Positions 13,005 through 50,964 of a stretch of 61,894 nt of DNA are shown here, one piece after another. Each line of letters opens with the position of its first letter. Positions within the stretch are counted from its first letter, which is position 1. A model generated the notes under the pieces. The model was not told the DNA's origin and did not search any database. It was given only the letters and a program-made list of their open reading frames with translations. Source of the stretch: a virus; the IMG/VR virus record IMGVR_UViG_3300044568_000567, positions 1-61,894 of that record. The stretch is one strand, 5' to 3'. The translations under genes and the position numbers were made by a program.

Positions 13005-15890
13005 TTAATTGCTGAAATCAACGAATTCATAACTTTCTATTCCAGTATGTTTTTTAGTGAATTCAAACTTTTCTGGTTTCGGTTCGGTCATCGTTGCAAC
13101 AACTCCACCCCGTTGCCTCATTAAATAGACTAGCAGGGACAGGGAATCGAGTGCGTCAGGACTATTTTGGCGAGTCCGTTTTACGAAGTCTCCCTTGCTC
13201 TCGACTCTCACCAACCCCTGCCCCTGCTGTTTGTACCGCCGCGAAGTCGCTTGACGAACTAACTCCTCGGTACGGAAGCTCGGTGAAATTTTTAAATACT
13301 CAAACTCCAGATATTTTGCAAGCCCGAAAATCAGTTCTGTAACAACTCCTGAATACAATTCGTTTGCGCGTTGTGTGTCATCTCCCAAGATATGGGTTTC
13401 TGAACTAGCCCATGAATAATTGACTCCCATGACTTCGCTTCCGTAGAGTGACTTCAACGCATCGTGGATTCCTGCTCCGTTTCCAGTTCGGTCAACACAT
13501 AGCCAATTCGCGCCGATCCTCATCTCCTTTGCAAAGCGGATGATCTCTGCGGTCTGCTCTAGTGTTGCCAATTTCGGGAACTGCATTTGCGAGTCTAATT
13601 GCAAACACGTCTTTGGTTTTTTGAATTCACGGAATTGTCCATCCCTCGGAGTCCAGCCATCACAGAGTCCGTATCGACCAAATGAACAAACAACTTGATC
13701 TCGGCCTTCCAATGCCAAATCGAACGCCGCTAGAGGCACTACAGGGCCAATAAACCGCAAGCTACCCATTGAGTTGTCCATCATTGCTGGGGTTATGATT
13801 GCCATCGATATGCCTTCCTGCGGGAAGAATCCACGGGCCATTGTGTAGTATTCGGCAGTCCTACCTTTACTTTCGTATGCCATGTATCCCTCGTAGGATT
13901 GGAAGCCGGGGAACACGATCTCCTTGTTGGTTACATTCTCGCACCTTGCTGCATCGAGCCTCAAGATATGCCAACCCTCCCTGCTATCCCACTCGAAATC
14001 CTCCTCGCAATCCACACTCTGCCAACCCCGCGAAGGTTCGCACCTCTTACCGAATTCACTATTCCGATCTTTCGGGTTAGACGCTCCGAAAATCTTGATG
14101 CGTCCCTTGGAATCTTTTGTGTCCGCAGCGGACAAGATGTTCTGTAAACCTTCCCAAACACCAGCGGGAACCTCCTCTGCTTCGTCTAGTACAACGTGCG
14201 TCCTACTCATCTGACCCCACTTGGGATCTGGCTTTTGCCTTGGGGAAGGGTGGAACCCGCGCAAAGTACCAGTTCCGCTATCACCTTTGGGAACAGCAAC
14301 TAGATGGATCCCATTTTTGTCATCGTCATTGGCTTGAATTGACTTTACCAAGTCCTCGCTACCTTCGTACTCTGGACGTACCAATGCGGTGCGGTAGAAA
14401 TTTTTAATCGCAGCGAATACGTTTCTCTGCGCGTGTGCCTCGGTAAGCGAAACCACTTTAATACAAGTGTACTCTGGATCTCGCATCCAATCCAACAAGA
14501 ACCACGCGGCAGCATTGAACGTGTTGTGAGTTATTGTAAAATCTGAAAGTAAAAATCTCTTGTCTCCATCCAATACAAATCCATAATATTCACCATCACC
14601 AACTGGAGTAATGTTTATTTTTTTCCCAATAAAAACTTTAACTTTTCTTGCATCACATTTTTTTAACCTGCATGGGATAACAGAACAATCTCCACTGATG
14701 TGTCCTCTGTAATAAGTTCCCCAAACCCCATTATTGACGCAACGCTTTCTGCATTCTTTGACTGTCACATCCAAACCAAGACTTCTGGCAATAAACGCAA
14801 TTGACACTGCAACTTCTTTGTTTTTTTGAATATATCCATACCCCGGCCCTGCCGCATACCCATCTGTATCGATAAAACCAGCAAGAACATTTAAACGAAC
14901 GCTTCTTGAATTTAATTTATAACATTCAGGAATCATTTTTTCATTATCTCTTATCGCAAACGACATTACTTTTTTTATCGTTCCTGCTCCCTTAACGTAA
15001 TAAACGCTTGATTTGTTATTCTTTTGTTCTGTTTTTACAATTTGACATCCCTTTTCTTCCCAGTATTGAATCCACGCATCTCTTATGACATCATCCATTG
15101 TGGTAAGTCCAAGTCTTCCACCCTTTCCATTCCCGTCACCTAACCACAATCCAAAAACATAAGCATCCATTGGAATCACTTGTTCATTAAAATGAACTCC
15201 AGTTGAAAATCCTTTGTATAAACTTTTGAATTGTTTGGATGATTTAAGATATTCTTGCAACCCAATATCAATCACCTTTCCCATTGTATATGTGCTTGAT
15301 ATCGTTTTCCCATCCCCATTCTTTTTGTTTTCAGTGCAAATAAGAGTTAAAATGTGATCGTCTGTAACAGTATATGACTCTCCACGCTCTTGATCTATTC
15401 GATACATTGGAGAAATTCCGCTATGCAAATCAACTACATTTCTTGGATTGCTATCTGGCCCCATTACCTTGTCTCCGATTTTTACATCTTCAACACTTTT
15501 CAATGTACCATCTGACATTATAACTTGCGTTCCTTTTAAAAGGCACTTCCCCATCGCTCCAGCACCCTGTACTAATAGTTTGTCATTCTCAAACAAACAC
15601 CTCCAAGTATCCGCTGCACTCTGTGGCCTCCAGTCATAAACTCCAGATCCCCAAAGAATCGTTGCCGCTGCCTCAAATTGGTCGTGTTTGAGCAGGTGTT
15701 GAACAAAGTTTAGCACAGTCTGCCTAGCCACCTTTTCGTCCAGTGTAACCTGCTTTTTCTGCGAATTCGTCAGATTTGTCAGTATAAACTGAGCGGCATA
15801 GATGACTCCATTGATATCATCCTTCTCCGCTTCCGCTCGCACCCTTGTAGCAATGTTAATTGCCTGTAAAACTGATGGGGGTTTATTCAT
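13005..15890 (-). CDS. terL: Large terminase subunit interrupted by an intein
   Basis: 961 residues as translated, about 620 after removal of a 341-residue intein. The N-terminal extein ends in QGAGAMGK; the C-terminal extein resumes with TFNAAAWFLLDW, so splicing rebuilds the Walker A motif GAGAMGKT. Walker B is VVLDEAEEV; downstream the nuclease part contains AAFDLALEGRDQVVCSFG and LCVDRTGNGAGIHDAL, typical of the RNase H-like nuclease of TerL. The enzyme pumps DNA into the prohead and cuts the concatemer. Without splicing the ATPase should be inactive. It precedes the portal gene; the small subunit is about 5 kb upstream. Confidence 0.9.
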   Translation of the reverse strand: MNKPPSVLQAINIATRVRAEAEKDDINGVIYAAQFILTNLTNSQKKQVTLDEKVARQTVLNFVQHLLKHDQFEAAATILWGSGVYDWRPQSAADTWRCLFENDKLLVQGAGAMGKCLLKGTQVIMSDGTLKSVEDVKIGDKVMGPDSNPRNVVDLHSGISPMYRIDQERGESYTVTDDHILTLICTENKKNGDGKTISSTYTMGKVIDIGLQEYLKSSKQFKSLYKGFSTGVHFNEQVIPMDAYVFGLWLGDGNGKGGRLGLTTMDDVIRDAWIQYWEEKGCQIVKTEQKNNKSSVYYVKGAGTIKKVMSFAIRDNEKMIPECYKLNSRSVRLNVLAGFIDTDGYAAGPGYGYIQKNKEVAVSIAFIARSLGLDVTVKECRKRCVNNGVWGTYYRGHISGDCSVIPCRLKKCDARKVKVFIGKKINITPVGDGEYYGFVLDGDKRFLLSDFTITHNTFNAAAWFLLDWMRDPEYTCIKVVSLTEAHAQRNVFAAIKNFYRTALVRPEYEGSEDLVKSIQANDDDKNGIHLVAVPKGDSGTGTLRGFHPSPRQKPDPKWGQMSRTHVVLDEAEEVPAGVWEGLQNILSAADTKDSKGRIKIFGASNPKDRNSEFGKRCEPSRGWQSVDCEEDFEWDSREGWHILRLDAARCENVTNKEIVFPGFQSYEGYMAYESKGRTAEYYTMARGFFPQEGISMAIITPAMMDNSMGSLRFIGPVVPLAAFDLALEGRDQVVCSFGRYGLCDGWTPRDGQFREFKKPKTCLQLDSQMQFPKLATLEQTAEIIRFAKEMRIGANWLCVDRTGNGAGIHDALKSLYGSEVMGVNYSWASSETHILGDDTQRANELYSGVVTELIFGLAKYLEFEYLKISPSFRTEELVRQATSRRYKQQGQGLVRVESKGDFVKRTRQNSPDALDSLSLLVYLMRQRGGVVATMTEPKPEKFEFTKKHTGIESYEFVDFSN
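14523..15545 (-). mobile_element. Intein with LAGLIDADG-type homing endonuclease in terminase Walker A
   Basis: 341 residues, in frame, from Cys (codon 15543-15545) to Asn (codon 14523-14525); the next residue is Thr. Splicing blocks are visible: N-terminal CLLKGTQVIMSDG, block B ESYTVTDDHILTL, C-terminal YGFVLDGDKRFLLSDF then TITHN. Between them are two dodecapeptide endonuclease motifs, FGLWLGDGNG (about residues 131-140) and LAGFIDTDGY (221-230), with conserved acidic residues, so the endonuclease may be active. Insertion lies between Lys and Thr of GAGAMGK/T. Composition is richer in A/T than the exteins, consistent with horizontal arrival. Confidence 0.92.
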
Positions 15891-16137
15891 TCACTTTCCA
15901 CCCGTACATCAAATTGAACCAAGCGAACTCCTTCTCCCCAGCCTTCTTACTGCTTCTGAATACTTTGGCAAATCTACTCACAAACCATTTCTTGTAGTCA
16001 CTAAACTCGTCCATGCTCCAGCTTTTTTTAGTGTACCAATCCTCTTGGTGGGTGAATTCTTTGTCGAATCCTTCAAACCCCACTCGCTTGAACATTTCGT
16101 CCAATGCTTCCATCATAAATGTATCTACTTTGCTCAT
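15883..16137 (-). CDS. Small hypothetical protein upstream of terminase
   Basis: 84 residues, rich in Phe, Trp, Asp and Lys (EEFSDYKKW-like composition: SMDEFSDYKKWFVSRFAKVF). Overlaps the terminase start by 8 bases, so coupled. No known domain; packaging accessory is only a positional guess. Confidence 0.6.
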   Translation of the reverse strand: MSKVDTFMMEALDEMFKRVGFEGFDKEFTHQEDWYTKKSWSMDEFSDYKKWFVSRFAKVFRSSKKAGEKEFAWFNLMYGWKVNE

Positions 16138-16140
16138 ATA

Positions 16141-16380
16141 TTAATCCCAGTATAGTTGTGTTCCCGTTAGCTTTCCGCTCATCATTCGTTCCAAGACTGG
16201 CTCAACGTCCCACGGGTACAATCCTTTCTCATAGCAAGTTTGCATCCCAAAGTATTCATTGAACTTGTCTGCATCTATTCCACTATTTTTCAACGCTTTA
16301 TCTAGCACATCAAACTCAATATGCTCAATTGGGTTCTCAGTAATCACAATGCCAAGTTGATCTAGCCTATTGTATTTCAT
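16141..16380 (-). CDS. Small hypothetical protein
   Basis: 79 residues, acidic. It contains IDADKFNEYFGMQTCYEKGL and ends near GTQLYWD. The ATG overlaps the stop of the upstream acidic gene (ATGA, 16377-16380). Unknown function. Confidence 0.55.
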   Translation of the reverse strand: MKYNRLDQLGIVITENPIEHIEFDVLDKALKNSGIDADKFNEYFGMQTCYEKGLYPWDVEPVLERMMSGKLTGTQLYWD

Positions 16381-16568
16381 TCCTCATCCTCCTCGTCATC
16401 ATCATCTTCTTCATCCTCGTCAAACATAGAATTCTCAATCAATTCGTGGATCTTGACTTGAAGAATGCCAATCATGCTGGCAAGCGGCAAATCAAACTCC
16501 GCAATATATGTATCAATTAATTTATCGATTTTATTTTGTAGTTCCGTTATCTGTTCTGAGTCTTTCAT
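16377..16568 (-). CDS. Small acidic-tailed protein
   Basis: 63 residues. A helical body (SEQITELQNKIDKLIDTYIA, MIGILQVKIHELIENS) is followed by a tail made only of Asp and Glu. The start is well supported: AAAGGAGG sits a few bases before the ATG at 16568, although it overlaps the upstream gene by 38 bases. The polyacidic tail resembles nucleic-acid mimic or histone-like partner proteins; function unknown. Confidence 0.65.
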   Translation of the reverse strand: MKDSEQITELQNKIDKLIDTYIAEFDLPLASMIGILQVKIHELIENSMFDEDEEDDDDEEDEE

Positions 16569-16716
16569 GTTCCTCCTTTAGTTGGTGAATTTTACCATCT
16601 TTGTTCCAAACTCTTACGTTTCCTAACTCTTCAAACTGGAAATCCCACTCTTCTTTTGTGATGCGCCCATAAGCGTAGTCCTCATTGGATTTCCGCTGGG
16701 CTTCTTCTCTTGTCAT
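16531..16716 (-). CDS. Small charged hypothetical protein
   Basis: 61 residues from the ATG at 16716 (MTREEAQRKSNED), which overlaps the previous stop as ATGA. A longer open frame to 16791 would overlap the upstream gene by 79 bases and is rejected. Contains YGRITKEEWDFQFEELG and a charged helix. No family recognised. Confidence 0.55.
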   Translation of the reverse strand: MTREEAQRKSNEDYAYGRITKEEWDFQFEELGNVRVWNKDGKIHQLKEEHERLRTDNGTTK

Positions 16717-16958
16717 GTCCAATGATCTAGCGGACACCTCTCCGTGTCCATAACCAATTTTACCTCCATGTTGCATCCGCAAACACCGCACTTTCCCGCC
16801 CCACTGAATGCCGTTGGATCATAGTGAACACACTGGTTGCAGATCATCAACCTCTCCTCGATCTGCTCCTTGTTGCGTATGGGCATACCTGCGCGAACGA
16901 ATGCCGCTGCACTTTTAACAAAGCTAATCGCTTTCTGCGCTATGTTTGGCTCGTTCAT
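16713..16958 (-). CDS. Small zinc-ribbon-like protein
   Basis: 81 residues. A hydrophobic helix near the N-terminus (QKAISFVKSAAAFVRAGMPI) is followed by a cysteine cluster CNQCVHYD...GKCGVCGCNM...RCPLDHW with C-x-x-C...C-x-x-C-x-C...C spacing, likely binding zinc. Similar short proteins are common in environmental phages near packaging genes. Stop and start overlap both neighbours by 4 bases. Confidence 0.65.
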   Translation of the reverse strand: MNEPNIAQKAISFVKSAAAFVRAGMPIRNKEQIEERLMICNQCVHYDPTAFSGAGKCGVCGCNMEVKLVMDTERCPLDHWT

Positions 16959-17176
16959 TTCATTCCAAAGATACTCTTTAATGCATCCACTCCAGTGCTG
17001 GTGCTATGATATGATCTTGGTTCGTCTTTGCCTTCTTCTTCCCCGTCATACATTGCAACATCCCAAGTCGTATCGAATAGCTTACGAAGTCCTTTCGCAG
17101 ACATGGTTACGTTTCCACGTCCGTTGAACGATGGGTTCTTATTGATGTACACTTTCCAGAGTTCTTCTTTTGTCAT
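16955..17176 (-). CDS. Small hypothetical protein
   Basis: 73 residues beginning MTKEELWKVYINKNPSF, then GNVTMSAKGLRKLFDTTWD and an acidic/Ser-rich C-terminus ending SIFGMK. Start and stop overlap neighbours (ATGA), placing it in the dCMP-deaminase operon. The N-terminal pattern (LW-Y--KNPSF) recurs in small phage proteins; no function can be assigned. Confidence 0.55.
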   Translation of the reverse strand: MTKEELWKVYINKNPSFNGRGNVTMSAKGLRKLFDTTWDVAMYDGEEEGKDEPRSYHSTSTGVDALKSIFGMK

Positions 17177-17562
17177 ACGTTTATCAGTGCAATGTTGAAT
17201 TCCGCTGCAAGCATGGTGGTAGATTCATCCGTTGGGTAAGTCTCACGATAGACTATCCTTTTGATCCCATATGATGCAAGCGATTTCAAGCAGTTGTTAC
17301 ATGGCAATGTTGTTGATGCAAGTAGGTAACACTCCAATGGTTTAACGTGGCGCAATGCGTTCTGCTCTGCATGGACAACGTAATTCCTACGTTTTTCCCT
17401 ACAACTCCAGTCTTCCTCCATGTGCGGTGGAAATCCGTTGTACCCACAAGCCGCAACAGTGTTGTCATGCCGCAACAACACAGCACCAACCTGCCTCCAA
17501 GGGTCTTTGCTCTTCTTGGCAACCACTTCCGCTATCGACAATGCATATTCATCCCAGTTCAT
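17173..17562 (-). CDS. dCMP (deoxycytidylate) deaminase-like enzyme
   Basis: 129 residues. The zinc-dependent cytidine deaminase fold is evident: H64-A-E66 (proton shuttle Glu) and P87-C88-N-N-C91 supply the zinc ligands, with RQVGAVLLRHDNTVAACGYNG preceding, typical of the dCMP deaminase/ComEB family. It converts dCMP to dUMP, feeding dTTP synthesis during phage replication. It sits with MazG, methyltransferase and glycosyltransferase genes. The leader contains an unusual repeat of ATGCGGT(GA)ATA. Confidence 0.85.
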   Translation of the reverse strand: MNWDEYALSIAEVVAKKSKDPWRQVGAVLLRHDNTVAACGYNGFPPHMEEDWSCREKRRNYVVHAEQNALRHVKPLECYLLASTTLPCNNCLKSLASYGIKRIVYRETYPTDESTTMLAAEFNIALINV

Positions 17563-17620
17563 ATTTATTTATTATTCACCGCATTATTACCGCATTATTC
17601 ACCGCATATTCATTCCAATG
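17563..17620 (-). repeat. Three short imperfect repeats before dCMP deaminase
   Basis: On the minus strand three copies of a 10-12-base unit (ATGCGGTGAATA, ATGCGGTAATA, ATGCGGTGAATA) occur in tandem, followed by AATAAATAAAT and the ATG. They could be an operator or translation-control site. Each contains an ATG followed shortly by a stop, so they could also act as upstream start-stop elements. Confidence 0.5.
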
Positions 17621-17623
17621 AAG

Positions 17624-17800
17624 TCAAGACCTGTTTATCTCACCCATGTGGTCTTCCAACCAGTAGACTGCTTGACCAGAGTCTCTTACCTCGTCTGGAA
17701 AGATACACTCGTCAGATATGATTCCGTTGAGTTGCAGTGCGTTCATTACCTTGGTTGCGTTAAGTCTTTTGTATTCGATGTAGTGTTCCAGAGTGTTCAC
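17624..17800 (-). CDS. Small hypothetical protein with GTG start
   Basis: 58 residues, starting at GTG (17798-17800) that overlaps the previous TGA as GTGA; an internal ATG at codon 19 is an alternative. Sequence includes NTLEHYIEYKRLNATKVMNA and DSGQAVYWLEDHMGE. No known family. Confidence 0.45.
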   Translation of the reverse strand: MNTLEHYIEYKRLNATKVMNALQLNGIISDECIFPDEVRDSGQAVYWLEDHMGEINRS

Positions 17801-17880
17801 TCGTCAAACCCTTTCATGCCATCGTATACAACATACAGTATAATAGCTGCTAATACGATATAGCCGATAATATATCCCAT
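17797..17880 (-). CDS. 27-residue single-span membrane peptide
   Basis: ATG at 17878-17880, stop TGA at 17797-17799. Begins MGYIIGYIVLAAIILYVVYD, one hydrophobic transmembrane helix, then a short charged tail. The stop is coupled to the next gene (GTGA). Very short, so annotation is tentative; phage membrane micropeptides of this kind do exist. Confidence 0.45.
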   Translation of the reverse strand: MGYIIGYIVLAAIILYVVYDGMKGFDE

Positions 17881-17890
17881 ATATGACACC

Positions 17891-18355
17891 TTATTGGCAG
17901 GACTCGCACTCTGGATCTTCGATGTGACAAGTGCGCTCCACTTTGATATCTGCCAAGTCATCATCGTCCTTTAGCACAACTGGTTCGTCAGCAACCTCCA
18001 GCTTGTCTGCACGGGCGATTGCCGCTGCGTTGCTGTACTGGTGCTGCGGATACCTCTTCGACAACTTCGCTACATTAGCCTCCATGCACTCGTTAATCGT
18101 CAAGCCTAACTCGTTCAACAGACCAGTCAGGTAGAACAGGATGTCTCCTGCTTCTTCAATCACGTTGTTGATGTCTAATTGCTTCTGGTAGACGCAGTGT
18201 TTCTTTACTGTGTCAAGCAGCTCACCCGCTTCGCCGCTGACTCCCACTGCCATGTGGAGGATGGAGGCTTGAAGAGGTGTTAGCTGGACAAGGATGTCAT
18301 GCCCCGGCTTAACGATTGATTGAACGAATTGTTCGTATGGTGTAGTTAATTTCAT
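17891..18355 (-). CDS. MazG-like nucleotide pyrophosphohydrolase
   Basis: 154 residues. The MazG/all-alpha NTP-PPase core is clear: GEAGELL (41-47), then VIEEAGDILFYL (65-76) giving the paired EExxE/ExxD metal-binding helices, and LTINECMEANVAKLSKRYP. Such phage enzymes hydrolyse (d)NTPs or (p)ppGpp-like nucleotides to monophosphates. The C-terminus carries an acidic tail and three cysteines (CHIEDPECESC), which is not part of the core. It overlaps the methyltransferase gene by 4 bases. Confidence 0.85.
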   Translation of the reverse strand: MKLTTPYEQFVQSIVKPGHDILVQLTPLQASILHMAVGVSGEAGELLDTVKKHCVYQKQLDINNVIEEAGDILFYLTGLLNELGLTINECMEANVAKLSKRYPQHQYSNAAAIARADKLEVADEPVVLKDDDDLADIKVERTCHIEDPECESCQ

Positions 18356-18906
18356 TTTGTATGTATGTTAAAGTATGCCAAGCCGAAACAACCTGATTCA
18401 GCTAGGTGGACTAACTTTCCATCACTACCTATGCTCTCGTCAAGTATCTTTTTAGTTATCATCTGAGGATGCCCATCATGTGGTTCAATGTCAACCCATT
18501 CAAAGATGCGAAGAACCTTTGCCGCTCGTAGTGCGTTGGCAATGATTAGTGCAGGGTCATCTGTATGCTGCAAGCAATTGTAAATCCAACACTCATCGAA
18601 CCCCTCTTCTACCACGTCCTCACCTCGCATCACCAGACACTCAACACCATGCTCATGGTAGCGAGCGTAAGTCCACTGCGGATACTGGAGCGGATCCACT
18701 ACCAATGCCCTGCCAAGTCCTTTTGCCTTTAACAGCATGGACGTTGGGCCACCACCTATGTCGATCACTGACTTGCCTGACAGACTGAATCCGTAGCCAA
18801 CCTGATGCAGTCCCATGAATCTCGCATAGACATAGTGCTTCTGGTCTTCATCGAACGTGTTGCAGCAGTCTCCCCAGTAATCCGATTCAAACGTGTAGTC
18901 ACTCAT
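18352..18906 (-). CDS. Putative SAM-dependent methyltransferase
   Basis: 184 residues from the ATG at 18906, chosen because GGAGGAAC precedes it and it overlaps the previous stop (ATGA). Motif I is SVIDIGGGPTSMLLK (about 46-60), a glycine-rich SAM-binding loop, followed by ALVVDPL (acidic end of strand 2) and ECWIYNCLQHTDDP (motif IV region). No DNA methyltransferase catalytic motif is visible. Close to a glycosyltransferase, so sugar or small-molecule methylation is possible. The target is unknown. Confidence 0.7.
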   Translation of the reverse strand: MSDYTFESDYWGDCCNTFDEDQKHYVYARFMGLHQVGYGFSLSGKSVIDIGGGPTSMLLKAKGLGRALVVDPLQYPQWTYARYHEHGVECLVMRGEDVVEEGFDECWIYNCLQHTDDPALIIANALRAAKVLRIFEWVDIEPHDGHPQMITKKILDESIGSDGKLVHLAESGCFGLAYFNIHTK

Positions 18907-19055
18907 TTCAGTTCCTCCTTCAGTTTCCTGTAGTGTGCAACTGCTTGGGGCCACTGGTCATGCCAACCTGATGACGCTACTAGTCGATCCGCGCAGTCCT
19001 TCCATCTGTCACGCTCCTTGGTTATCTTGTCTATCTCTTCTGTTGTATCGTTCAT
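18903..19055 (-). CDS. 50-residue helical hypothetical protein
   Basis: Start ATG 19053-19055; stop overlaps the methyltransferase start (ATGA). Begins MNDTTEEIDKITKERDRWKD and continues with SGWHDQWPQAVAHYRKLKEE. Its charged helical style (KERDRW) resembles the coiled-coil protein at 23137-23751. Its 3' end supplies the Shine-Dalgarno of the methyltransferase gene. Confidence 0.5.
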   Translation of the reverse strand: MNDTTEEIDKITKERDRWKDCADRLVASSGWHDQWPQAVAHYRKLKEELK

Positions 19056-19092
19056 ATTGTTTTTGTTTGTGACAAATAGTGGGTAGTATTTG

Positions 19093-20238
19093 TCACAAGG
19101 TTTGTTGTTGATTAGATGGGTAAGTCATTGTCATTGCATCGATTCCGTTGCCATCAGCGTACCAACCTGCTCCGTTGTACACGTCTAGCACGTCTTGGAA
19201 GTACTTCTCGTACCGAGGTGCAACTCGTTCAAGCGTAAAGTTCTCACCAAACGCACGGCAGTCCGCTGGTCTGATCTTGTCGATGTTGTTGATTGCGTCC
19301 ACGTAGTCACCCATCGTGCGGCATCGATACCCAGTGACCCCATGTAAGTTGTTCTCTGCAAATGATCCCCAGTCAGACGTGATGGTTGGTGTTCCGCTCA
19401 ATAGGTTTTCAATCTGTACTCCACCGAATGGCTCGACGTACTGGCTAGGCAGGAATGATGCCTTGGCTTTAGACATCAGTTCCTTGCGCTTAGGAACGTC
19501 AGCATAGCCCGCATACTCGACATGGGGTGGAAATGTATACCCTGCCTCGCATTGACCCGCTACAACCAGTTTCACTCCTGCTCTGCGCGTTGCATCGATG
19601 GCGATATCAACACCCTTGCCGCTATACACCCGGCCAAGGTACAGGAAGTAATCCTCCTTCTTGTCATTGAAGTCGAAATCATCGATGTCAAAGTAGTTAG
19701 GTATCACAACGGAATAGTTATCTTGCTGGCACTGACCTACTGCACCCATGCCGCAGTGAGCGTGATAGATGGCATATGACTCCCAAACCTTCCATTTAGC
19801 CCAGTGACCCCCCGCGTACCCTATCCCCGGCTCAACTACGATCATATCATGTTGGTGTGCATCACATATCGGTCTGACTCCAGACCCCCAAAATGGAAGA
19901 ATAAAGTCGTTCTTTTCCTTTCGAAAACCTACCTCCCGAATGGCATTGGCATAGAACGTCTGGTATGCGTGATCGCTTGTGTTGAACTTGAAGAACGTCT
20001 TGCGCCAGTCATGGCTACCATAACTCTTAGCAAAGTCATCATTGGTCAGGACGCTGACGTGTTCGGTACATTGAAGGTCGCTGTCCTCATGGCCATAATG
20101 GATGACTTCATGGCCTCTGTCTGTCATCATTTTGCCGAATTTGACTACCTTCTGCGTGTAGGCACAGGCATTAAACTCTTTAGATGTAACTGTGTGTGGA
20201 AGCCCCAGTGCATGGAATCTCATTTTTTCTGTTTTCAT
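19093..20238 (-). CDS. Glycosyltransferase family 4-like protein (GT-B)
   Basis: 381 residues. N-terminal acceptor domain with TQKVVKFGKMMTDRGHEVIH; C-terminal donor domain shows DYFLYLGRVYSGKGVDIAID (classic GT4 strand-loop), KLVVAGQCE, HVEYAGYADVPKRKELMSKA and EPFGGVQIENLLSGTPTITS, where the E-x7-E motif (EPFGGVQIE) contacts the nucleotide sugar. A retaining glycosyltransferase is well supported; the substrate could be modified phage DNA, host surface glycan or virion. Next to a methyltransferase, which would fit assembly of a decorated sugar. The ATG at 20223 is an alternative start. Confidence 0.85.
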   Translation of the reverse strand: MKTEKMRFHALGLPHTVTSKEFNACAYTQKVVKFGKMMTDRGHEVIHYGHEDSDLQCTEHVSVLTNDDFAKSYGSHDWRKTFFKFNTSDHAYQTFYANAIREVGFRKEKNDFILPFWGSGVRPICDAHQHDMIVVEPGIGYAGGHWAKWKVWESYAIYHAHCGMGAVGQCQQDNYSVVIPNYFDIDDFDFNDKKEDYFLYLGRVYSGKGVDIAIDATRRAGVKLVVAGQCEAGYTFPPHVEYAGYADVPKRKELMSKAKASFLPSQYVEPFGGVQIENLLSGTPTITSDWGSFAENNLHGVTGYRCRTMGDYVDAINNIDKIRPADCRAFGENFTLERVAPRYEKYFQDVLDVYNGAGWYADGNGIDAMTMTYPSNQQQTL

Positions 20239-20263
20239 TATGTACTACAGGTGTTATTGGAAG

Positions 20264-20419
20264 TTATTGGTTGTTTTCCTTGTTCTTCAGCTTGTTGATC
20301 AAGGACTTCTGCTTATTTACGTCATGTTGCAAATCGTGGATGATTTGCCGCAATTCTTTAATATACTGCTTTTGTTGCTGAATTATACGCATCTCTGGTG
20401 TTATCTCATGCGCTTTCAT
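20264..20419 (-). CDS. Small coiled-coil protein
   Basis: 51 residues from the ATG at 20419, which overlaps the preceding stop (ATGA). Nearly all helix: MRIIQQQKQYIKELRQIIHD and LQHDVNKQKSLINKLKNKEN in heptads. The longer open frame to 20524 is rejected because it overlaps the upstream gene. Likely a dimeric coiled coil; partner unknown. Confidence 0.55.
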   Translation of the reverse strand: MKAHEITPEMRIIQQQKQYIKELRQIIHDLQHDVNKQKSLINKLKNKENNQ

Positions 20420-20625
20420 AGGTTCTCTAGGATCTCGGTTAGTTTCGCTTTCATGTTGTTGACTTGTTTCAAACTGTAATAGTCTTGTGCGCTCACTTCG
20501 TATGTTGAGTACCTGTGGAGGCACTTCTGGTTATCGCAGTATCTACGTCTCGAAAATCGATTGCCGAAGTCTCTACATTCCATAACGTGTGTCGTAGAAC
20601 TGCATTTGGGGCATAATTTGACCAT
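20416..20625 (-). CDS. Zinc-ribbon DNA-binding-like protein
   Basis: 69 residues. C5-P-K-C8...E-C-R...FSRRRYC-x4-C-LHRYSTYEV matches the zinc-ribbon pattern of the NrdR N-terminus and Ogr/Delta-type phage transcription activators (C-x2-C...RRR-x-C-x4-C...R-x-T-x-E). A regulatory or nucleic-acid-binding role is likely. The C-terminal helix (SLKQVNNMKAKLTEILENL) may dimerise. Confidence 0.65.
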   Translation of the reverse strand: MVKLCPKCSSTTHVMECRDFGNRFSRRRYCDNQKCLHRYSTYEVSAQDYYSLKQVNNMKAKLTEILENL

Positions 20626-20735
20626 TTATGATTTAACCCTAGATATGGGGTATTTGAAATATGTTGCCACTATATGGTGATTATTATCGACAACATCAGT
20701 GTTTTTGTGGTTAAAATACATTAGCTCATCGTACG

Positions 20736-21224
20736 CTATGCTGAGTTTGATTCCCCGCTCGCTTCGATTCGCATTTGCTTCTCCTCTGGTTCCCTGCCCT
20801 CGATTAGCTCAATAGGTTCAGCGTTGCGATCACCAATGGTGAATGTGACGTTGAGTGGCTTTGCTTGTGTCGATTCGATTTCGATTTTATCGCCGTACTG
20901 ACGTGCGTTCCATTTACCTAGTAAGCGGATACGAGTGTCAATTCTGACCCTCTTCTCCTGAGCATCGAGCATTGGATCATCAGCTATTCTTATGCAGTCA
21001 TCAGCGATTGCGTGAGTGCCTATTTTTCGTGAGAGATGAGATTTATTGCGGAATTCTTCGTTTGAGCATTCCCAACGCCATACTGTTGAGTAGTTTGGCA
21101 TACCTTCGAGATTGCAGATAGATGAGAGTGTTTGACCCATTGCGAGTCTCTCGCAGATTTCATCTCCGAGAGCTTCGTCGTACTTGGGAGGAGTGCCTAC
21201 TTTTCGTGCTGGTTTAAAGCTCAT
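20736..21224 (-). CDS. terS: Small terminase subunit (Sf6-like)
   Basis: 162 residues. The N-terminal HTH region follows the Sf6/lambda-like small terminase pattern: PPKYDEALGDEICERLAMGQ, SLxxIC with MPNYSTVWRWE, then helical HAIADDCIRIADDP and RVRIDTRIRLLGKWNARQYG, which is highly typical of this family. It recognises the packaging site on phage DNA and recruits TerL. It is separated from terL by about 5 kb of nucleotide-metabolism and sugar genes, which is unusual. The nearby region could contain the pac site. Confidence 0.85.
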   Translation of the reverse strand: MSFKPARKVGTPPKYDEALGDEICERLAMGQTLSSICNLEGMPNYSTVWRWECSNEEFRNKSHLSRKIGTHAIADDCIRIADDPMLDAQEKRVRIDTRIRLLGKWNARQYGDKIEIESTQAKPLNVTFTIGDRNAEPIELIEGREPEEKQMRIEASGESNSA

Positions 21225-34023: not shown

Positions 34024-37000
34024 TTATTTATTTTTCTTTTTTGAAGCTAATACCTTTTGAGTATCTTCGTCAACACGCAAAATAAATCCAGCATTTTTTC
34101 GCATTGCTCCAGCAACAGTTTCAGCGGAACCATCGACCACTGTTTCTCCAGCGTGAGTTTCTCTGTATTTCTTGAATATTTGCTCTGGTTTTACTGGATT
34201 TTTAACCAAGAAATTGTTCCCTTTTTCTGGCCCAAGCATTACCCAATCGTATGCCTCATGCTCAACAAAATCAGGATTAGACCTCATTTCGTCTCTCGCC
34301 TTACGCTCCGCTTTAGACATTGCCGCTTCTTCTTTTGGATCCTTTCCAAAATACAAAGCAAAAATATCTGGATTTTGAGAAAGTTCAACCGCAGTTACAA
34401 TATCAAGGTTTTCACCCTCCCTAAAATCTGACGATTCACGCATAACAAGACTTGGATCAAATTTGCCAAACTTAAATGACAATATACTTCCAATTGCTGA
34501 ACCCCTGTCAGAGAATGTATTCCCAATATTATCAGAAATATACAATGATTTGTTATTTTTTAATAATTCATTGTATTCTTTTATATTAACATATTTTTCT
34601 AATTTTTTATTTGCTTTTTCAATGCTGTTTTCTGCCCAGTTTCCAGTTTTAACATTACTAATTGCCTTTTTAATACTAGAAACTGCTTTAAATATTTCAC
34701 CATAAAATCCTTTGGGAGTAATATCTTCCCTTTCTTTTGTAATTTTATTTATTTTTTCATTTATTATTCTAATCTTTTCTGGATCTTTTTTAGCAGAAGA
34801 CATTTGACGTTTTAAAGCGGTTATAGCAGAACTCATTGCTGATTTCTCTCCTGCAATAATTCCTGCTTGCATGGATAATGAAATGATTTCCTTTTCCCTT
34901 TGGCTCAATTTTGATTTTCGCATCATCTTATCAAGAGTCCTTGCGGTTCGCTTGTTTGATTTATGAGCAATTGGATCCATCAAGTGAACCAAAGCGTATT
35001 TCGCTCCATGAGATGCTAACCTATTTTTAGCCCCAGATACAAAGGTGGATGTCATATTTGCCCAGACTGCCTTGTATTTCTTGCCATCTGGCCCAGTAAT
35101 TGTGACTTGGTTTGATTTAAGGAATGGATGCAATGGGCCACCCATATCTCCACCAGTAGCCCTTTGACGATCCGCCTCAAGAAGAATGACTGGTTGTCCT
35201 TTTAGTTCTTTTATTAAGTCTTTGAACTTTGGAACTTCAAGGTATTCAGGATCGTAAGAGAATGACATTTTTCTTCCACCACCAATATCAATTTCAACAT
35301 TTGTTGCTTTATCCCATTGAAATCCTTTTGCTGGAGTGATTCCTTTTATTATTGTTGTTTCAAAGTCTGGAAGCGGTTCATTTTTTCCAATTGGACGTGC
35401 TGGCATGAACTGCAAGCCAGTTGGTTTTACTCCATTAATTTCAACCTCGCTAACTGGAGAATATCTCCCCCTGCCTTTGCTAGATTCAATGCTTCCTGCG
35501 CCTGAATCAGTAAGGTTTCCAATTCGTTTGGTGAGTTGGTTTCCTGTGAGTCCGCTTGCAAGTTCTCGTTTTTTGAGTTTGGTAGACTCAAGTTTTGTAA
35601 GGTACGCTCCATAAGATTCTGGTTTTTTTCCTGACATTACGATTGAATGCGCCCACAGTGCGGCTTGCACTTGTGAAGGCTCCCAACCAATTTCGTTGGC
35701 AATTTCTGTTAATAATTTTTCCGCTAAATCATACTGCGATTTACTTGGTGTGTCTACTCCAAACAATAGACGAGCAATGTGGCGATCAACAACAACACGG
35801 GTTACATCCCCTTCATTTGCTGCCTTATAGTTTGAAATCTTTCGACCCGAAACATCTGTTTTGTTTTTGATGGCATTTAGGTTACCGATAACTGCATCAA
35901 GATATCCTCCCTTTTTTTGTCCACGCAACCTTGCATCAAATTCTTCACCTCGCATTAACTGACCAAATGCCTTTAAAGCAAGACCTACATTGGCCTTTAC
36001 AGATGATGCTTGAGAAGTAACAGCAAGAATCTCTTGGAATAGTTCAGCATAGTCACCAAAGAAATCTTCCAAAACTTCCTGATGTTCTTTATACCAATCT
36101 CTCCATGATTCTTGACTCAAAGCAGCATCAGTAAGTGCTTTTTTTGTCATTTTTAATTTTAATGAATCTTTGTTTTTTTTGGTTTTTTCTTCTCTCTCCG
36201 CTGGCATGAACTGCAAGCCTGTTGCTCTAGGCAACTCGTCTTGCACTGGCTTATCGTTCTTATCGAGAATCTTTATAAGATTCTCATCGAAGACAACGTA
36301 GTTGTATGTTGGTGCTGTCTCAGCACTTTTAATTTGTTTTTCAAGAGCAGCAAGTTCTTTTTCGCTTGCAGTTAACCAATCTTCAAATTGCTTCCGCATT
36401 TCCCAATCTCTTGGGTTGTTTTCAAGTGTTTTTCGTAATTGCGGAACTTCTTTAAGAAGCTCGTCCCGACGATTGGTATCGGAGGCACTTGTTCTACTCA
36501 TGCCGTCTAGGTAGCGGATGCCGGGGATGCCTGCTGTAAACAATGCTTCTGACGTTGCTTTAGTATTTTCTGGCAATGTATAAACATTATTATCCTCATT
36601 AGTGTTAATTTGTTTACTTAATTCTTGTGCAATATCATTGTAGAACACGCTCATTGGTTGTTCTTGAAAATCTTCGTCTCCAACTAAACCTGAATTTTCA
36701 ACAACTTCGTAAGACTTTCTTGCTAAAATAGCTTGCGTTTTGCTTGCGTTTTTTCTGAATTCTTTATCTTTTAATTGATCTGCAATTTTTGTAATTAAAG
36801 ATTTTACCTTTTCACTCTGCTCACTCAATGGCTTATCCCAATCAAGCAAGTCTTCGTCTTTTACATCGAGATCAACTTTGTAGAGATTGCCTGTTGGTTC
36901 CATGACATCATTTGGCCCAGTCCAAACATCCATAGCTTTTTTAACTTTATCACTTGCTTCAGAATATGTTTTTTGAAATGCTGTATTCCAATCGTCACCT

Positions 37001-40000
37001 TTAGCCAAGTCTGCTCGGACTTGGTAAGCAAACCAAGGGTCTTTTTTTGTTCCAAATTTTGAAAGTGCATCCCTATATTTTTCTCCGACACTTCTTGCCT
37101 GTGCAAAGTAAAGCCCCCATCCATACGCTTGCGCTCCTTCACCAGTGCCTATTTTCTCCAGCTTGAACTTGTCTACGTCAAATGGAGTTCCGTGGAATGC
37201 AGGAAGGAAGTTGATCAACCCAGCGGAGGATACCAATGCGTTGGAGAATGGTTTGATAACTGCGTCTGGAGCAGGTTTTGCACTGGTGGTTATGTCAGAA
37301 GATTGTATGCTTTTTTCTGAGGTAGTAGCACCTATCATCTCTGAACTTTTCGGTTTTTCGGAGATAGTAGGTGTCAACTCCATATCTGGCAGCATAGCCT
37401 TGCCCCGCACAGGAGGCTCAATTTCGCCCAGCGAGAGTGCTTTCGCTCCAACCACCTTGGTTGGTGCGGAAATGCCTTCTAGGGGGCGTATACGCGCAGA
37501 GATCGGCTCGTATTTGGTGGGTTGCTCTGCTGGCATGAACTGCAACTGACCACCACGGACTTTACCTGCCATTTCGGGAGTGATGTTTACACGCCAGATT
37601 GGGGTATCCTTCATGGAAGGGATGGTGTAACCACCCTTGTCAATGTCTGGCCCTTTTTGCATAATGCCAGAGTCAACCTTCTCAACCTTGCCACCCATCT
37701 TTGCAATATACTTGCCAACCTCTTTAGGAAGGATTTGATCGTAGAATCCCTTCATTCCTTCGCCACCGACTTTAAGATCAAGTCCAGATAGTGAGTGATA
37801 TTCGTCACCATCCTCTGTTTCTCGCTTCTTACCTTTGTTTTCTTGCATTTTTTGTGCAAGTTCTTTGCCGAATGTTGCCTCTACTTCAGAGAGTTCCATT
37901 CCTTCTTTTGAAAATACTTCATTCTTTCCTTTTATGGCAGACGCTGAATAAAGACCATCTTCGTCAATTGAATAATCAATTGCATCAACCTGCTTGCTCA
38001 AGTCATATCGTTCGGCTTGCGTATCACCAGTAGTCCAACCAATCCACTTCTTGTCTGACTCCACGGCATCTCGCAATGCGCGTTTGAAAAGTTGGATAGA
38101 CCAGTCTTTTCGGAATGGTGCGTCTGGGATTTTTCCAACAACTGAAGATGATTCTCTTTTAAATGCATATTCAATTGCTGATTCAGCAGAATCTCCTGCC
38201 ATCCCATCTGTTACAAGATTACCTTCAGCATCAAATACTGACCATGTTAAATTCGATCCAGCTTTCCCAGTTTGTTTTGCTGTCCATCCCTTGGGCGATA
38301 TTAAATACCCCTTCTCCCTACCCGCCTGATGCCTGTCAGACTGAAACTCCTCAACAAACAACCCCTCGTTGCCCTGTGCGTCTGTGCGCTCATTGAGACG
38401 CATATGCGCTACATAGTTGGGTGTTTCGGGGAAGTGGGAGGAGATGTAGCCAGCCCTTTCAGATGATGGAATACGAACCAAATCAGACTGCCTGTCAATT
38501 AAACCTCTTAATTGTTTTTGAATTTCGTTCCACTCTGGAGATTGTTGTTCAAATTGAGATTGCTGCTTATTTAATTCAAATATTTGTTTTTTAAGTTTTG
38601 CTTCTTCTTCTACGATTTTATTAGGCATTGTCATCACCACCTCGCGGTAGTTTGCGCCACCGGGGAGTTGGTATTTTTTAAAGCTCGTGCTATCTGAATC
38701 ACCCTCATCTTCTTGACGAATTTCCACACTATCTTCCACTTCCATCCTTAATTCGTTTTCTATTTCGTCATTTAAATCTTCCTTAGAATCGTATCCATCT
38801 TCAAAATTATAATCATAAATACCATATTTACCACTATAAGCATCTTTTTCTTTAAACCATTTTGAGTTCCACTCTTCTAATCTTTCTTTAGCGGATTCTT
38901 CATCATCAAAATGTTCAACCTCATTGTTATAATCATCAAAAATTACATAGTCACTATCATCATACCCTATAGTATCAATAGTCCAGTCTGAAGCAACCTG
39001 AACCACGTTTGGACGATCAATTTGATCAAGTTGATTTTGAACCCAGTCGTATTTTGCATTCTCTGCTTCTTCAAGCGTGTCATAGGACTCTGATGTGGAG
39101 TCATCTGAAACAATCCATTTTGCAGTTCCTTTATTAAGAGTCACCTCTTTAAACTTAACAGCACCTTCATTGCGAAGATACTCCATAACCTTGTCTTTTG
39201 GAACCTTGCCACTGTTCTCCGCTGCAAGACGATCAATCTCACCTAGCACTCCAGACCACTTCAGTTCCTCGGCCTTTGCATTCTGTGGGTTGTTGACGAT
39301 TGCCTTGAGTTGTTCTGGTGACGCAAATTTACCCGTGACTTTCTCGTCGATGGTCTTTTGTAGTCCAGAGTACATCCCACGCTCGGAGGTTGGGTAGCGT
39401 TCTGTTTCCGCTGGCATGAACTGCGTTGCCGATGCTGATACCTCTGGTTCGCTTTCCATTGGTTCAAGTATAGCTTGCGTTGGATCAAACATGGATCGAA
39501 CGCGCAACTTTCCATTCTCTACATCAATGTACTCGGCAGGATGCAATAGATCTTGCTGATGCAATTGTAACTCCAATGGTTCAACATTGCCTTGCGCTGC
39601 TAGTCTTGCTATCTCCGTGTCAATTTCCATTGCCTGAGCGAATTGCTCTGGACTCTGTAATTCGGCAAGAGGATTTTCTGCTGGAAGATAGTTTTTAACT
39701 GCCAACTCATAACTGAATGGCATCTTTGCCAGTGCAGTTTCATCGTACGAATTAATTCTATCCATGCGTCTGGAACGAATAACTACGTCCCTGCTATCTT
39801 GTCCCTTTCGTTTAGGCAAGGTAGTGCGTTCTGGATTCGCATCGCGGGTTTCCTTTCGATAGACATTGAATAGATCGTTGATCCTATTCTTCATTTCCAT
39901 TGCTATCTCAAGGTCTGGATTAAGGCCAATATGCCCCTGCAAGCCTTGTTTGTGGTTATAAAGGTATTGACGCACAGAGTCCCAAAATTTGGTCATGTCT

Positions 40001-43000
40001 CCACCCCACAACCTCAAGTTGCGAGGACGCTTTGCTGCCCAAGCATTAGCCTTGTCGTGCATCCGTGACATCGACATCGTTGTCATCAAGAAGTTGCCTT
40101 GTTTATCAAATTGAAAACCAAATGGGATTTCGGTTCTCATTTGTGGTTGCAATGCACGATACTTTTTGTCTCGTATTGCGGCTTGGTATTCGATCTCTAC
40201 AATACTTCCATCTTTTCGACCCAAGATTTCATTAAAGAATGCAATCTTACGTTTCAGTGATGGAGCAACAAGGTCGTTTGGCAGTGCATTAATTGCAGCA
40301 ACCTGTGTTGGTGAAAGGGTTCCCCGATAGTTTCCGTTCCCTGTATCTTCCAACCTCACTCCAGATGCATCTTCAGGTGCTTCATCGATAGCCTTTCGGA
40401 TTGCCTCTCCACGTTTCTTTGCGCGGCGTTTTGATTCCCTTGGGGAAATAATGCGAGGGGATCCATCTGCATTCCTAGCAATGCGTGTATCAACGCTAAG
40501 AGAAGTCCCGTCAGGCATTGCCTGAAGCGGAATATCAGGCCCAAGTGAAATCACGTTGCCTAGCTCATCGACCAACTGACCATTTGCAAATCGATAGTCA
40601 CTAATGAACGAATCCACCTTCACGTTGGGTGGAATAACAATCTCTTGAGTCTGACCATCTGGGGTTGTCATTTTGACAACTTGTTGTTGCTCGAAAAACT
40701 CGGAATCCTTGTATCGTTGTTGCAATGCACGATTGGTTGAAAACACTGTCAAAGGGATTTCAGCCTCATCCTTAATCGGATCAGAATTGTAAACCAAAGA
40801 TTCATTGAGATCACGAAGACCCCTTTGATATTGGCGCATCATTGCGAGTGCCTCTGGGTTTAGTTCTCCACCAATAACAGATGAAAATTGCCCTTGGTCA
40901 TCAACAATGACTCCGTAATTACGAAGTGCTTCCTTGACTCGTTTTAGCGCACCATTCTTTGTTCGACTTTCAATCCAGTCCACAACAGAACGTCCCACGG
41001 AGTCTAAGTTGTTCCGTAGATTGCCTTGGATTCCACCAGAAAGACCTGCCAACTCTGACAGATACTCTTCTTTCATGTAGTTCCTCAACTGGTCTTGATT
41101 GGCAAAGTTCGACAAGAATGACGCTCCACCAGAGGCATCCATTGCGGCAGCATATTGCAATGCAAACTTATCCAATTCAGAGTCTGGAATTACACCTTTT
41201 TTAACAACTTCAAATGTGCCATCTGCGTTAATTACTTTTTGATCGAAAAGTTCTTTGCGGATTGGTGCAATCATGTCACGAACCTCTTGGAAGTTCGATA
41301 GTGCGTGTTGCATTTCGTGATTGATAACTCGACCAAGGTTAAGTCCATCACGTCCCATTTGAGTTACCAAATCACCATTGATTACAACTGTTGCACCTGT
41401 CTGATTTTGCATCTTCAGATGGTTTGGTTTCCCAGTCTGTTCTGAAATTGCAAACCCTCTTGCGGTAGAGGATCCAGCTACATCTTGTAGATATTGCTTG
41501 ATGGTTTGATCGGCTAAACCAAGCATCTCTTTCTCTGATGGAGACAAACGAGGGTTGCCAACAAGTTGTTGAAGCACACTTTCCGCATCAGTTAATGTCT
41601 TTCCATACAGATTTCGGTAGAAGTCCTCCATCTGATCTGGACGCAGAACCTTTACTTGAATGTTATTCAACCCTGCTGCCGCTCCAGTGGTCTTTGCCAA
41701 GTCCATTGCATCCGTGAAGCTCAATTGAACTTGACGTTTGATTTCCGCTTCAGTTTGCGGAGTCGATTTGTCTAAAGCTTTTCGTTGTTCTGCAAAATTA
41801 TCAATTTGATCTTGGATTCGACGCTCGTCATCCTTGTTTATCTGAGCAACTTTTTTTGCCTCTAGATTTTTGATCTTTAGATCAAGAGCAGATTTGATGT
41901 TGTTGACATTCGACAATTCATCGATGCTTGACATCAATGTTGGATCAGCGGTTTTAATGAATCTCTGAATGTCCGCATCTTCATCTTTACGCAATTGAGA
42001 CGGATCTGGTGTAACAATGGCATCTATCTTTTCAGCAAGCCCAGTTGTTGGATCAATCAAAGCACCACCACGCTCCATTAGTCTTGCTCCACCATACGCT
42101 CCAATACCCGCTCCAACTCCAGCACTATAACCAAGATCACGCGCAGTCTCAATATCAGGCAATCCAAGTGCCACATTCAATACAGCACCATTAACGGCAG
42201 GTTGAATAATAGCGTTAGATTGACGCACTGCCCAGTCAGCAAGCCTTGCGCGTCCCTTGCCACCCATTGCCTGTGGCCCAAAAAGTTTTTTGGTTAGTTC
42301 ACCAGATGTTGGTGCGCGTCCAGCTAGTTCAAACATCCCTCGTCTTCCTTGCCCAGCTTGACTTGCTACATCACCAATAGTCGTTGCAATACCCCTTGTC
42401 ATCTTGGCAGGTAGTTTTGCAGGGCCAACAATTGTATTTGTTGCAGTTTTTACGAATGTATCTGGATCTCCAACCGCATATTCACCAATCTTGCGTGAAG
42501 CACCTTGAATCTTTTCAATTCCAGATTCCAGTCCACCAGCGGTTTTTGCCACTCCCTTTGCAAGTGGTGCAACAACACCTTTTAAAGCTAATTCTCCAGC
42601 CTTGCGTGTAACCTTACCAGTGGCTTTTGCAAATGTGTTGGTAATGCGGTTGGTTCCCGGTAATGAAATCGGTGACAACATTTCACCAAGCATCGAAACA
42701 TTTTCATTAATCTCGTCCTTAGTTAATCCTTGTTCTTTTACCAACTCCTCATAAGCCTTTTTAGCAAGTTCTGCTTCTTCTGGAGTTGCTCCTTGAGCCA
42801 AAGCGGCAGCAGAAGCTAATTTTTGCAGTAATGGATTTTCAGCTAATAGACGAGCAGCATTGTCTGGATCATCAGCATACACTTTTTGAGCGAACTGACG
42901 CATTCCTTCACGAAGCATATATTTCTCAAATCGCTCATCGTTAGACTTTCCAAGCAATTTATCAGTAATGCTGCTTCCAAACATCGAAAATCGAACCACG

Positions 43001-48823: not shown

Positions 48824-50962
48824 TTAGCAGGGATTCTGGGCTTTAAATTGTTGTGCAGCGGCAGTTGCGGATTGAAGTGCAAGCACTCCAGCTTCCTCCT
48901 GCGCGTGTTCAAAACTAATATATGACAAGAACGTAGCAGATGCCGTGGCAGAAATTGATTTCGATGGGTTTACATCACAAATCAATGTTGCGGTCTTGAA
49001 TACCTTTGCGCTATATGAGTTATCATTTGCCGATTGTTGCTCGTATGGGTTTGGCAACAGGTCGATTAACAATGTTTCCCCAGTCTGTGCCACAACACAA
49101 GATTGAGTCTCGTCTCCTTGCGGTACACCTGTGGATTTTTCCATGTATGGATCCATGAAGAGTCGAACGATTTCCACTCCGAATTCACCGCACCACTCGA
49201 TTAACAAAGAAAATGCCTTATCTACATCGTCTGTCAGATAAGACTCGCACGTTGAAACAAGTGAATTCCGTTGCGCCGATTCAGTGGTCAACCTTCGATA
49301 CTGGGAGTTAAGGAAACCTAGATTCTGAATCTCTGACTCATACGGAGTATTCTGCCATTGGTAGTCATCCGTGACCGCAAGTATGCGCTTTTGAAGGATT
49401 GGGTTGTATGATCCCTTGCTGCCCCTGTAGGACACTTTTAGGTCAACTGTGCCACCAATCTGCGTTGATTCGATTTCAGCATAGACAAACTTCTTTAGAT
49501 CCATTTCGTCACCAAGCAATGGAGTTTCAAATTGCGAGTAAATCCGATTGTAAAGTGTGGTCGTAGTTTTGTCTGGATTGATCTGAAGGTAAGAATCGAT
49601 TCGTTCTGGTTGGAATGACTCCCAAAGGTGGTTGAATGATCCATCGTTGGTCGCTGCATAGTCTACACTAAAATGAAAGCACCGAGATTGCCCGTCAATG
49701 ACCCCTGTAGTCCATTCTACTGGGCGTGTTCCTGTCCAAACTCCAGCCCATGCTGGAAACCTATTTTCTCCACTACCCCATTCTGATGCCGTTGCATAAT
49801 CTAGCACCATGGTGTCTGAATTTAATGTTTGAAGATATGGAATAGAGTAAAGCAAATAGTTTTCAAATCCCGTGGCACAAATCCTCGTTGGATCCGATGC
49901 CATGAGTCTCTTTGCTCTTGCCATTTCAACGTCCTTAAACAAGACCTGCGAGGACAAGTAGGAGGTTGCTGCAATATCACCTGTCATCAGACCCCCCTGC
50001 GCGTACCACCACATCTGACCCGCTTGAAAAGCAATTGATTTTCCAGCAATGCAACCAACAGTTGGATAAAGCGTAGATTGGAAGTTTTCGGTTGTTACCC
50101 ATTGCTCACGATCAAGGACTCCCGATTTCAATTGGAATGTAGACCGATCCGTAAATACAATCAGACGTGTTGATGTATCTTGACCGACATAGCTTGTCAT
50201 TCCAGTAATCGGACGAGAAAAACTAAAATCTCCACGGGATGTTCCTGTTGTGCGTTCTTTGAAAGAGGTTGGATCACCTAGATCGGATGCAAGCACGATA
50301 TTCTTATCAGCGATCCACATTCTGTTTCCGCTATATGCCATCCAGTATCCTACGGGAATTGTGGAGAGTTGCGTTCCACCCTTGTCTGCACCATCCCAAA
50401 ATGATGGATATGAAATACCATCTTGGATCATCACAATCCGATGTGCAGGAGTAGCAAACTCGTCTGTTCCAGTCGATAGATTTGCGGAGCGTGTGGCAAG
50501 CGCAAACACGAATTGATCAACGTCTGGTGACATCGAGATGTTTTTCAGACGATAATCTTCCCAGTTGCTTGGCTGAACCAAAGGGAATGGCGAGTAGTAG
50601 ACGTTGCCATTCACGGCAAACACCATGTAGGACAATTCGCTTGCAACAACACCACTTCCATCCACGTCGAAGATTTTAGCTGGAGTAGTCGATACTATTC
50701 CATCACGCTCGATTGTGAGTGCCGATTCCTTTTGTTTGTTGGAAGAAAAGAGAATACCACCTTGGAAATTACCAGCGGGAAGGGAGAGTTGCATTTTATG
50801 CCCCGGCCTCGTTTGAACGATGCCACCACGGACATTAACATTTACACCCCACTTGCATTGGTTTTCTGGCAATGACCACGGGTTGCGAACGGAATTAACT
50901 CCTTGCACCCACCCAGTTGAGACTTTTTTTAGTCTTCCTGCTGTAATGTTTTCACTTTTCAT
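48824..50962 (-). CDS. Large tail structural protein (nozzle-like)
   Basis: 712 residues. The N-terminus SENITAGRLKKVSTGWVQGV then NSVRNPWSLPENQCKWGVNV and VRGGIVQTRPGHKMQLSLPA is characteristic of the beta-propeller-like tail nozzle proteins of short-tailed phages (similar layout to T7 gp12-type proteins: GGI-TRPG). Repeated WD/beta-rich stretches follow (ITGMTSYVGQDTSTRLIVFT, STFQLKSGVL, YPTVGCIAGKSIAFQAGQMW). Location directly after the adaptor-like gene supports it. Assignment is by pattern and context. Confidence 0.65.
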   Translation of the reverse strand: MKSENITAGRLKKVSTGWVQGVNSVRNPWSLPENQCKWGVNVNVRGGIVQTRPGHKMQLSLPAGNFQGGILFSSNKQKESALTIERDGIVSTTPAKIFDVDGSGVVASELSYMVFAVNGNVYYSPFPLVQPSNWEDYRLKNISMSPDVDQFVFALATRSANLSTGTDEFATPAHRIVMIQDGISYPSFWDGADKGGTQLSTIPVGYWMAYSGNRMWIADKNIVLASDLGDPTSFKERTTGTSRGDFSFSRPITGMTSYVGQDTSTRLIVFTDRSTFQLKSGVLDREQWVTTENFQSTLYPTVGCIAGKSIAFQAGQMWWYAQGGLMTGDIAATSYLSSQVLFKDVEMARAKRLMASDPTRICATGFENYLLYSIPYLQTLNSDTMVLDYATASEWGSGENRFPAWAGVWTGTRPVEWTTGVIDGQSRCFHFSVDYAATNDGSFNHLWESFQPERIDSYLQINPDKTTTTLYNRIYSQFETPLLGDEMDLKKFVYAEIESTQIGGTVDLKVSYRGSKGSYNPILQKRILAVTDDYQWQNTPYESEIQNLGFLNSQYRRLTTESAQRNSLVSTCESYLTDDVDKAFSLLIEWCGEFGVEIVRLFMDPYMEKSTGVPQGDETQSCVVAQTGETLLIDLLPNPYEQQSANDNSYSAKVFKTATLICDVNPSKSISATASATFLSYISFEHAQEEAGVLALQSATAAAQQFKAQNPC

Positions 50963-50964
50963 TA

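Follow-up and report, generated by a model that had tools for sequence, protein, structure and literature searches.

In our judgement it is about 90% probable that a mobile intein whose PI-SceI-type LAGLIDADG endonuclease is intact, one that splices and homes into intein-less terL alleles, occupies the Walker A motif of what is likely the large terminase gene (terL) in a viral DNA stretch of 61,894 nucleotides (IMG/VR record IMGVR_UViG_3300044568_000567, positions 1 to 61,894; hereafter the window).

An intein between the Lys and Thr of the Walker A motif

The interrupted gene encodes a 961-residue precursor in which an N-extein of 115 residues, ending LVQGAGAMGK, is followed by a 341-residue intein running from CLLKG to FTITHN and then by a 505-residue C-extein that begins TFNAAAW. 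The insertion point falls directly after Lys115 of the Walker A motif. The features of the gene and its surroundings are as follows.

13005 to 15890, minus strand: terL precursor gene, 961 codons (open reading frame; intein-less orthologues of 620 residues)
14523 to 15545, minus strand: intein coding sequence, Cys1 to Asn341 (Pfam, PDB, AlphaFold model, Foldseek)
15546 to 15566, minus strand: first part of Walker A, GAGAMGK, extein residues 109 to 115 (uninterrupted in 72 empty loci)
15132 to 15155, minus strand: first LAGLIDADG motif, FGLWLGDG, intein residues 131 to 138, with presumed catalytic Asp137
14859 to 14885, minus strand: second LAGLIDADG motif, LAGFIDTDG, intein residues 221 to 229, with presumed catalytic Asp228
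14523 to 14528, minus strand: C-terminal splice residues His340-Asn341 (invariant among 36 aligned inteins)
14520 to 14522, minus strand: Thr+1, last Walker A residue and presumed C-extein splicing nucleophile
20736 to 21224, minus strand: terS, Sf6-type terminase small subunit (Pfam PF20901, E=1.4e-29; phrog_1482)

The first-pass annotation had located the intein at coordinates that proved exact to the base, without giving the strand, which is minus. It had also described a 341-residue insert between the Walker A Lys and Thr of TerL with intact splice ends and two intact endonuclease motifs, and this description was borne out in full: Cys1, His340-Asn341 and Thr+1 are all present, and the two motifs begin at residues 131 and 221.

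Both domains of the insert are recognizable by profile, by sequence and by predicted fold. The intein matches the Pfam families Hom_end_hint (PF05203, E=2.6e-21), Hom_end (5.9e-5) and LAGLIDADG_3 (7.3e-5), and its best PDB match by sequence is the yeast intein PI-SceI (E=1.9e-16). An AlphaFold model built from 32 relatives has a mean pLDDT of 93, and its best fold matches in the PDB are again PI-SceI entries (Foldseek E=9.5e-25, TM about 0.8 on the query). In an alignment of 36 related inteins Cys1, His340 and Asn341 are invariant, as are D137 and G138 of the first LAGLIDADG motif and D226, D228 and G229 of the second; the +1 residue is Thr in the window, and among relatives it is almost always Thr or Ser. 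The insert thus has the residues of a class 1 intein (Cys1, His340-Asn341, Thr+1), a Hint fold according to Pfam, AlphaFold and Foldseek, and the two motifs with acidic residues of a PI-SceI-type LAGLIDADG endonuclease, and it lies in frame in a gene whose orthologues lack it and have continuous flanks (72 empty loci, 620-residue open reading frame). Sequence and model together mark the insert as a class-1-type intein bearing a LAGLIDADG homing-endonuclease domain, whose activities are predicted. Comparison of the window with two other carriers (L004 and L085) gave dN/dS values of about 0.06 to 0.07 in the Hint part and 0.08 to 0.13 in the endonuclease part, and such purifying selection on both domains fits an element that is still splicing and still homing. 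The intein has nine cysteines, five of them clustered at residues 265, 269, 287, 292 and 297 (window positions 14655 to 14753).

The host protein and its genomic setting

The intein-less terminase matches PHROG 2 (phrog_2, terminase large subunit) with E=4.5e-9. No Pfam family, terminase families included, was matched up to E=1, the PDB gave no sequence match, and a search of 50,697 phage records returned zero matches. By eye, the protein contains Walker A, a Walker B-like VVLDEAEE, a GASNP motif and RNase H-like acidic motifs. Because of the PHROGs match, these motifs and the nearby terS, the host protein is likely TerL, of a family far from cultured ones. With a pLDDT of 39.3, the structure model of TerL that we built from 18 relatives could not be used and was discarded.

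At least 152 related IMG/VR stretches carry this terminase family, which has no match in the 50,697 phage records; its carriers form a phage group that is abundant yet lacks cultured relatives. Searching for the terminase in bacterial and archaeal genomes brought out no host. In the window terS lies upstream of terL, with about 5 kb of other genes between them (15883 to 20736, minus strand), among them a dCMP deaminase (17173 to 17562) and a glycosyltransferase (19093 to 20238) gene. Elsewhere, an open reading frame of 3162 residues (34024 to 43512, minus strand) yielded only a sub-threshold match to DUF7178; it and nearby open reading frames of 1328 and 712 residues (48824 to 54951) probably encode large virion or internal proteins.

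Occupied and empty terL alleles in metagenomes

From the 152 IMG/VR stretches found in a search for terL relatives we kept 80 loci, and 76 of these cover the insertion site: four are occupied and 72 are empty. Among the empty alleles are natural ones that encode 620 residues with a continuous GAGAMGKT and 97 to 99% protein identity; 620 residues is also the length given in the first-pass annotation for the ligated extein. In three instances an occupied and an empty allele come from the same metagenome (L001 and L027 in 3300037519, L002 and L026 in 3300037493, L003 and L019 in 3300042938). Querying with the intein itself brought up a fifth contig that has it at this site (L085). In L090 to L092, three contigs at a greater distance, an intein of 59 to 63% identity lies at GK/S, the slash marking the insertion point, in the same terminase family.

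Recent movement of the intein between terL backgrounds

Among the window, L001, L002 and L003, in all of which the precursor reading frame is intact, intein DNA is 97.4 to 98.7% identical and extein DNA 87.2 to 91.7% identical. The corresponding dS values are 0.04 to 0.10 for the intein versus 0.44 to 0.83 for the exteins, and third codon positions differ at 8 to 20 of the 341 intein codons as against 128 to 192 of the 620 extein codons (p ≤ 3e-16 in every pair). On a tree of terL extein DNA the six carriers require six state changes, all forced by well-supported branches, though L004 and L085 sit on long branches and their deep placements are less sure; the window's nearest relatives on this tree are the empty alleles L016 and L019. 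Because the intein is far less diverged than the exteins and its carriers are scattered among empty sisters, we conclude that it evidently entered these terL backgrounds recently, by horizontal homing and not by vertical inheritance.

Divergence begins a few bases away from the insertion, the nearest flank differences being at −4 and +3 in some pairs, so that the co-converted tracts must be short. As the contigs are metagenomic, the two flanks assigned to a single occupied allele may be wrongly phased with each other, but each intein-flank junction would still be real. Upstream of the insertion, 24 bases are identical in the window, L002 and L003; they include a GGG codon, which occurs in four of six carriers and in two of the 47 distinct sites that are empty (p=0.0007); this post hoc observation is a weak hint that the codon was carried along by short co-conversion. 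A downstream motif shared by L001 and L002, GCAGCGGCA, was considered as a co-conversion mark and dropped, being present in empty alleles too. The occupied sites differ among themselves at several synonymous positions, and the endonuclease is therefore presumably tolerant of synonymous variation in its site. For comparison, in the published BAKA-Courthouse pair the site was still cut at 75% identity (PMC5050341).

Proposed mechanism and alternatives

From established intein biology we infer that the intein splices and cuts DNA; splicing is probably also a requirement, and the precursor probably lacks ATPase activity. TerL inteins are known to splice, and two to cleave intein-less terL (PMC5050341). 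In our reading the precursor would be translated as 961 residues, and its Hint domain, acting through Cys1, Asn341 and Thr+1, would excise the intein and restore GAGAMGKT in a 620-residue ATPase. Once free, the endonuclease would cut at the P-loop in intein-less terL genes of phages that co-infect the cell, and the intein would be copied into the cut gene during repair, with co-conversion of short flanks. The recent spread into four terL backgrounds lends such cleavage indirect support.

The first-pass annotation had suggested that packaging may be controlled by splicing efficiency. In a fuller form of this idea, conditional splicing delays active TerL, and packaging begins only at the right time or under the right conditions. 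The Walker A position should indeed leave the precursor inactive, conditional splicing has been reported for the P-loop intein DnaBi1 of mycobacteria (PMC6195587), a conditional P-loop intein in RadA is cited in that same article, a sensor role for TerL inteins has been raised as a possibility (PMC5050341), and nine cysteines are at hand in the present intein. We nevertheless think a regulatory switch improbable. The intein is missing from 72 of the 76 related terL loci, among them genes for proteins of 97 to 99% identity and some from the same metagenome, and its carriers are scattered on the tree beside empty neighbours; in published tests five TerL inteins all spliced readily (PMC5050341); and no feature specific to conditional splicing, nor any specific sensor feature, was found. 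This absence from most loci, together with a divergence pattern typical of a mobile element, leaves control of packaging by splicing efficiency without support, and the pattern across the population gives no sign of a function that is needed. We likewise give little credence to a selfish intein whose splicing rate also sets the onset of TerL ATPase activity where it is present, in which case carriers and non-carriers from one sample would differ in packaging timing.

An old intein inherited vertically with terL and lost repeatedly would agree with the single clade (support 100/99) into which all inteins of the terL family fall, and at 59 to 89% identity the divergences of extein and intein are similar in size, so that the deeper history of the element may lie largely within the terL family. 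Yet among the window, L001, L002 and L003 the intein is much more recent than the sequence around it, a recent spread that contradicts such descent, and precise loss would have been required many times; we hold vertical inheritance to be very unlikely. Least credible of all is that the insert is dead for splicing or an assembly artefact, with TerL non-functional or active unspliced: splice and nuclease residues are all intact, purifying selection acts across independent contigs, the precursor reading frame is uninterrupted in the four closely related carriers, and the insert splits the invariant Lys-Thr of Walker A. A mobile, splicing and homing intein remains the reading that we prefer.

A wider intein family in Walker A motifs

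A profile search of viral contigs yielded at least 537 confirmed related inteins, of which we examined 82. Nearly all of these interrupt a Walker A motif, most of them at GK/T or GK/S, and a smaller set lies two residues earlier, at G/SGK, G/TGK or G/CGK. Judged by the portion after the intein alone, 40 of 62 host proteins match the helicase C-terminal domain, and fewer are terminases, DnaB or AAA proteins; three of the 62 C-exteins match PF14890 (Intein_splicing). When mapped on the intein tree, four groups of site type require four changes versus 29 when shuffled, the groups having been drawn by eye from the flanks and partly following host-protein relatedness. The helicase-type G/SGKT inteins form one clade (98/97), and terminase ones (L125, L135) group elsewhere. 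The family to which the window's intein belongs (35 to 45% identity) evidently enters the Walker A motifs of phage helicases, terminases and AAA proteins. That inteins favour nucleotide-binding sites, TerL P-loops included, was stated in the first-pass annotation and agrees with the literature, in which both the P-loop bias and the TerL Lys/Thr site are described (PMC5050341); since this bias was already known, the Walker A family extends a known pattern. In a gene of Vibrio phage PS65A.1 a second, partial Hint match lies downstream of the Walker A intein (L086, 5354 to 5599), which suggests two inteins in one gene.

Significance and closest known systems

The type of element and its exact insertion site are already published; the terminase family is one without cultured representatives, and the population evidence of homing, as read from these sequences, is unusually clear. 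Four terL backgrounds, whose third codon positions differ in about a fifth to a third of cases, hold one and the same intein and have empty counterparts from the same metagenomes. This amounts to a clean natural homing experiment, from which both the tolerance of the endonuclease to synonymous variation and the length of co-conversion can be measured from sequence. It also strengthens the case that one intein family invades Walker A motifs in unrelated phage ATPases.

The closest precedent by insertion site is the TerL1-a inteins of mycobacteriophages, which lie in the large terminase and there separate the invariant Lys and Thr of Walker A (Kelley et al., 2016; PMC5050341). The window has the same exact site in a host protein assigned to TerL through phrog_2 and terS; the comparison is one of insertion site, and the window's terL family differs in having no Pfam terminase match and belongs to an unrelated, uncultivated phage group. 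Among other TerL inteins, those at sites b, c, e, f and g were shown to splice, and cleavage of intein-less alleles was shown for those at b and c (PMC5050341). PI-SceI, the yeast VMA1 intein, has the same architecture of a Hint domain with an inserted two-motif LAGLIDADG endonuclease, but about 20% identity, and resides in another host gene and another organism. In Salmonella and Escherichia phages of the Kagunavirus type, such as Shashou, an intein annotated as such in the record is 38 to 39% identical over the whole of the window's intein and is likewise inserted at GK/T of a Walker A motif, although its host is a DNA helicase and not a terminase. The Aeromonas phage pIS4-A (L168) carries an intein of 39% identity in the Walker A motif of its terminase large subunit, inserted two residues earlier than in the window (GGRG/SGKT); inteins at a site type nearly identical to that of pIS4-A (L125, L135) fall into another clade when the inteins are placed on a tree.
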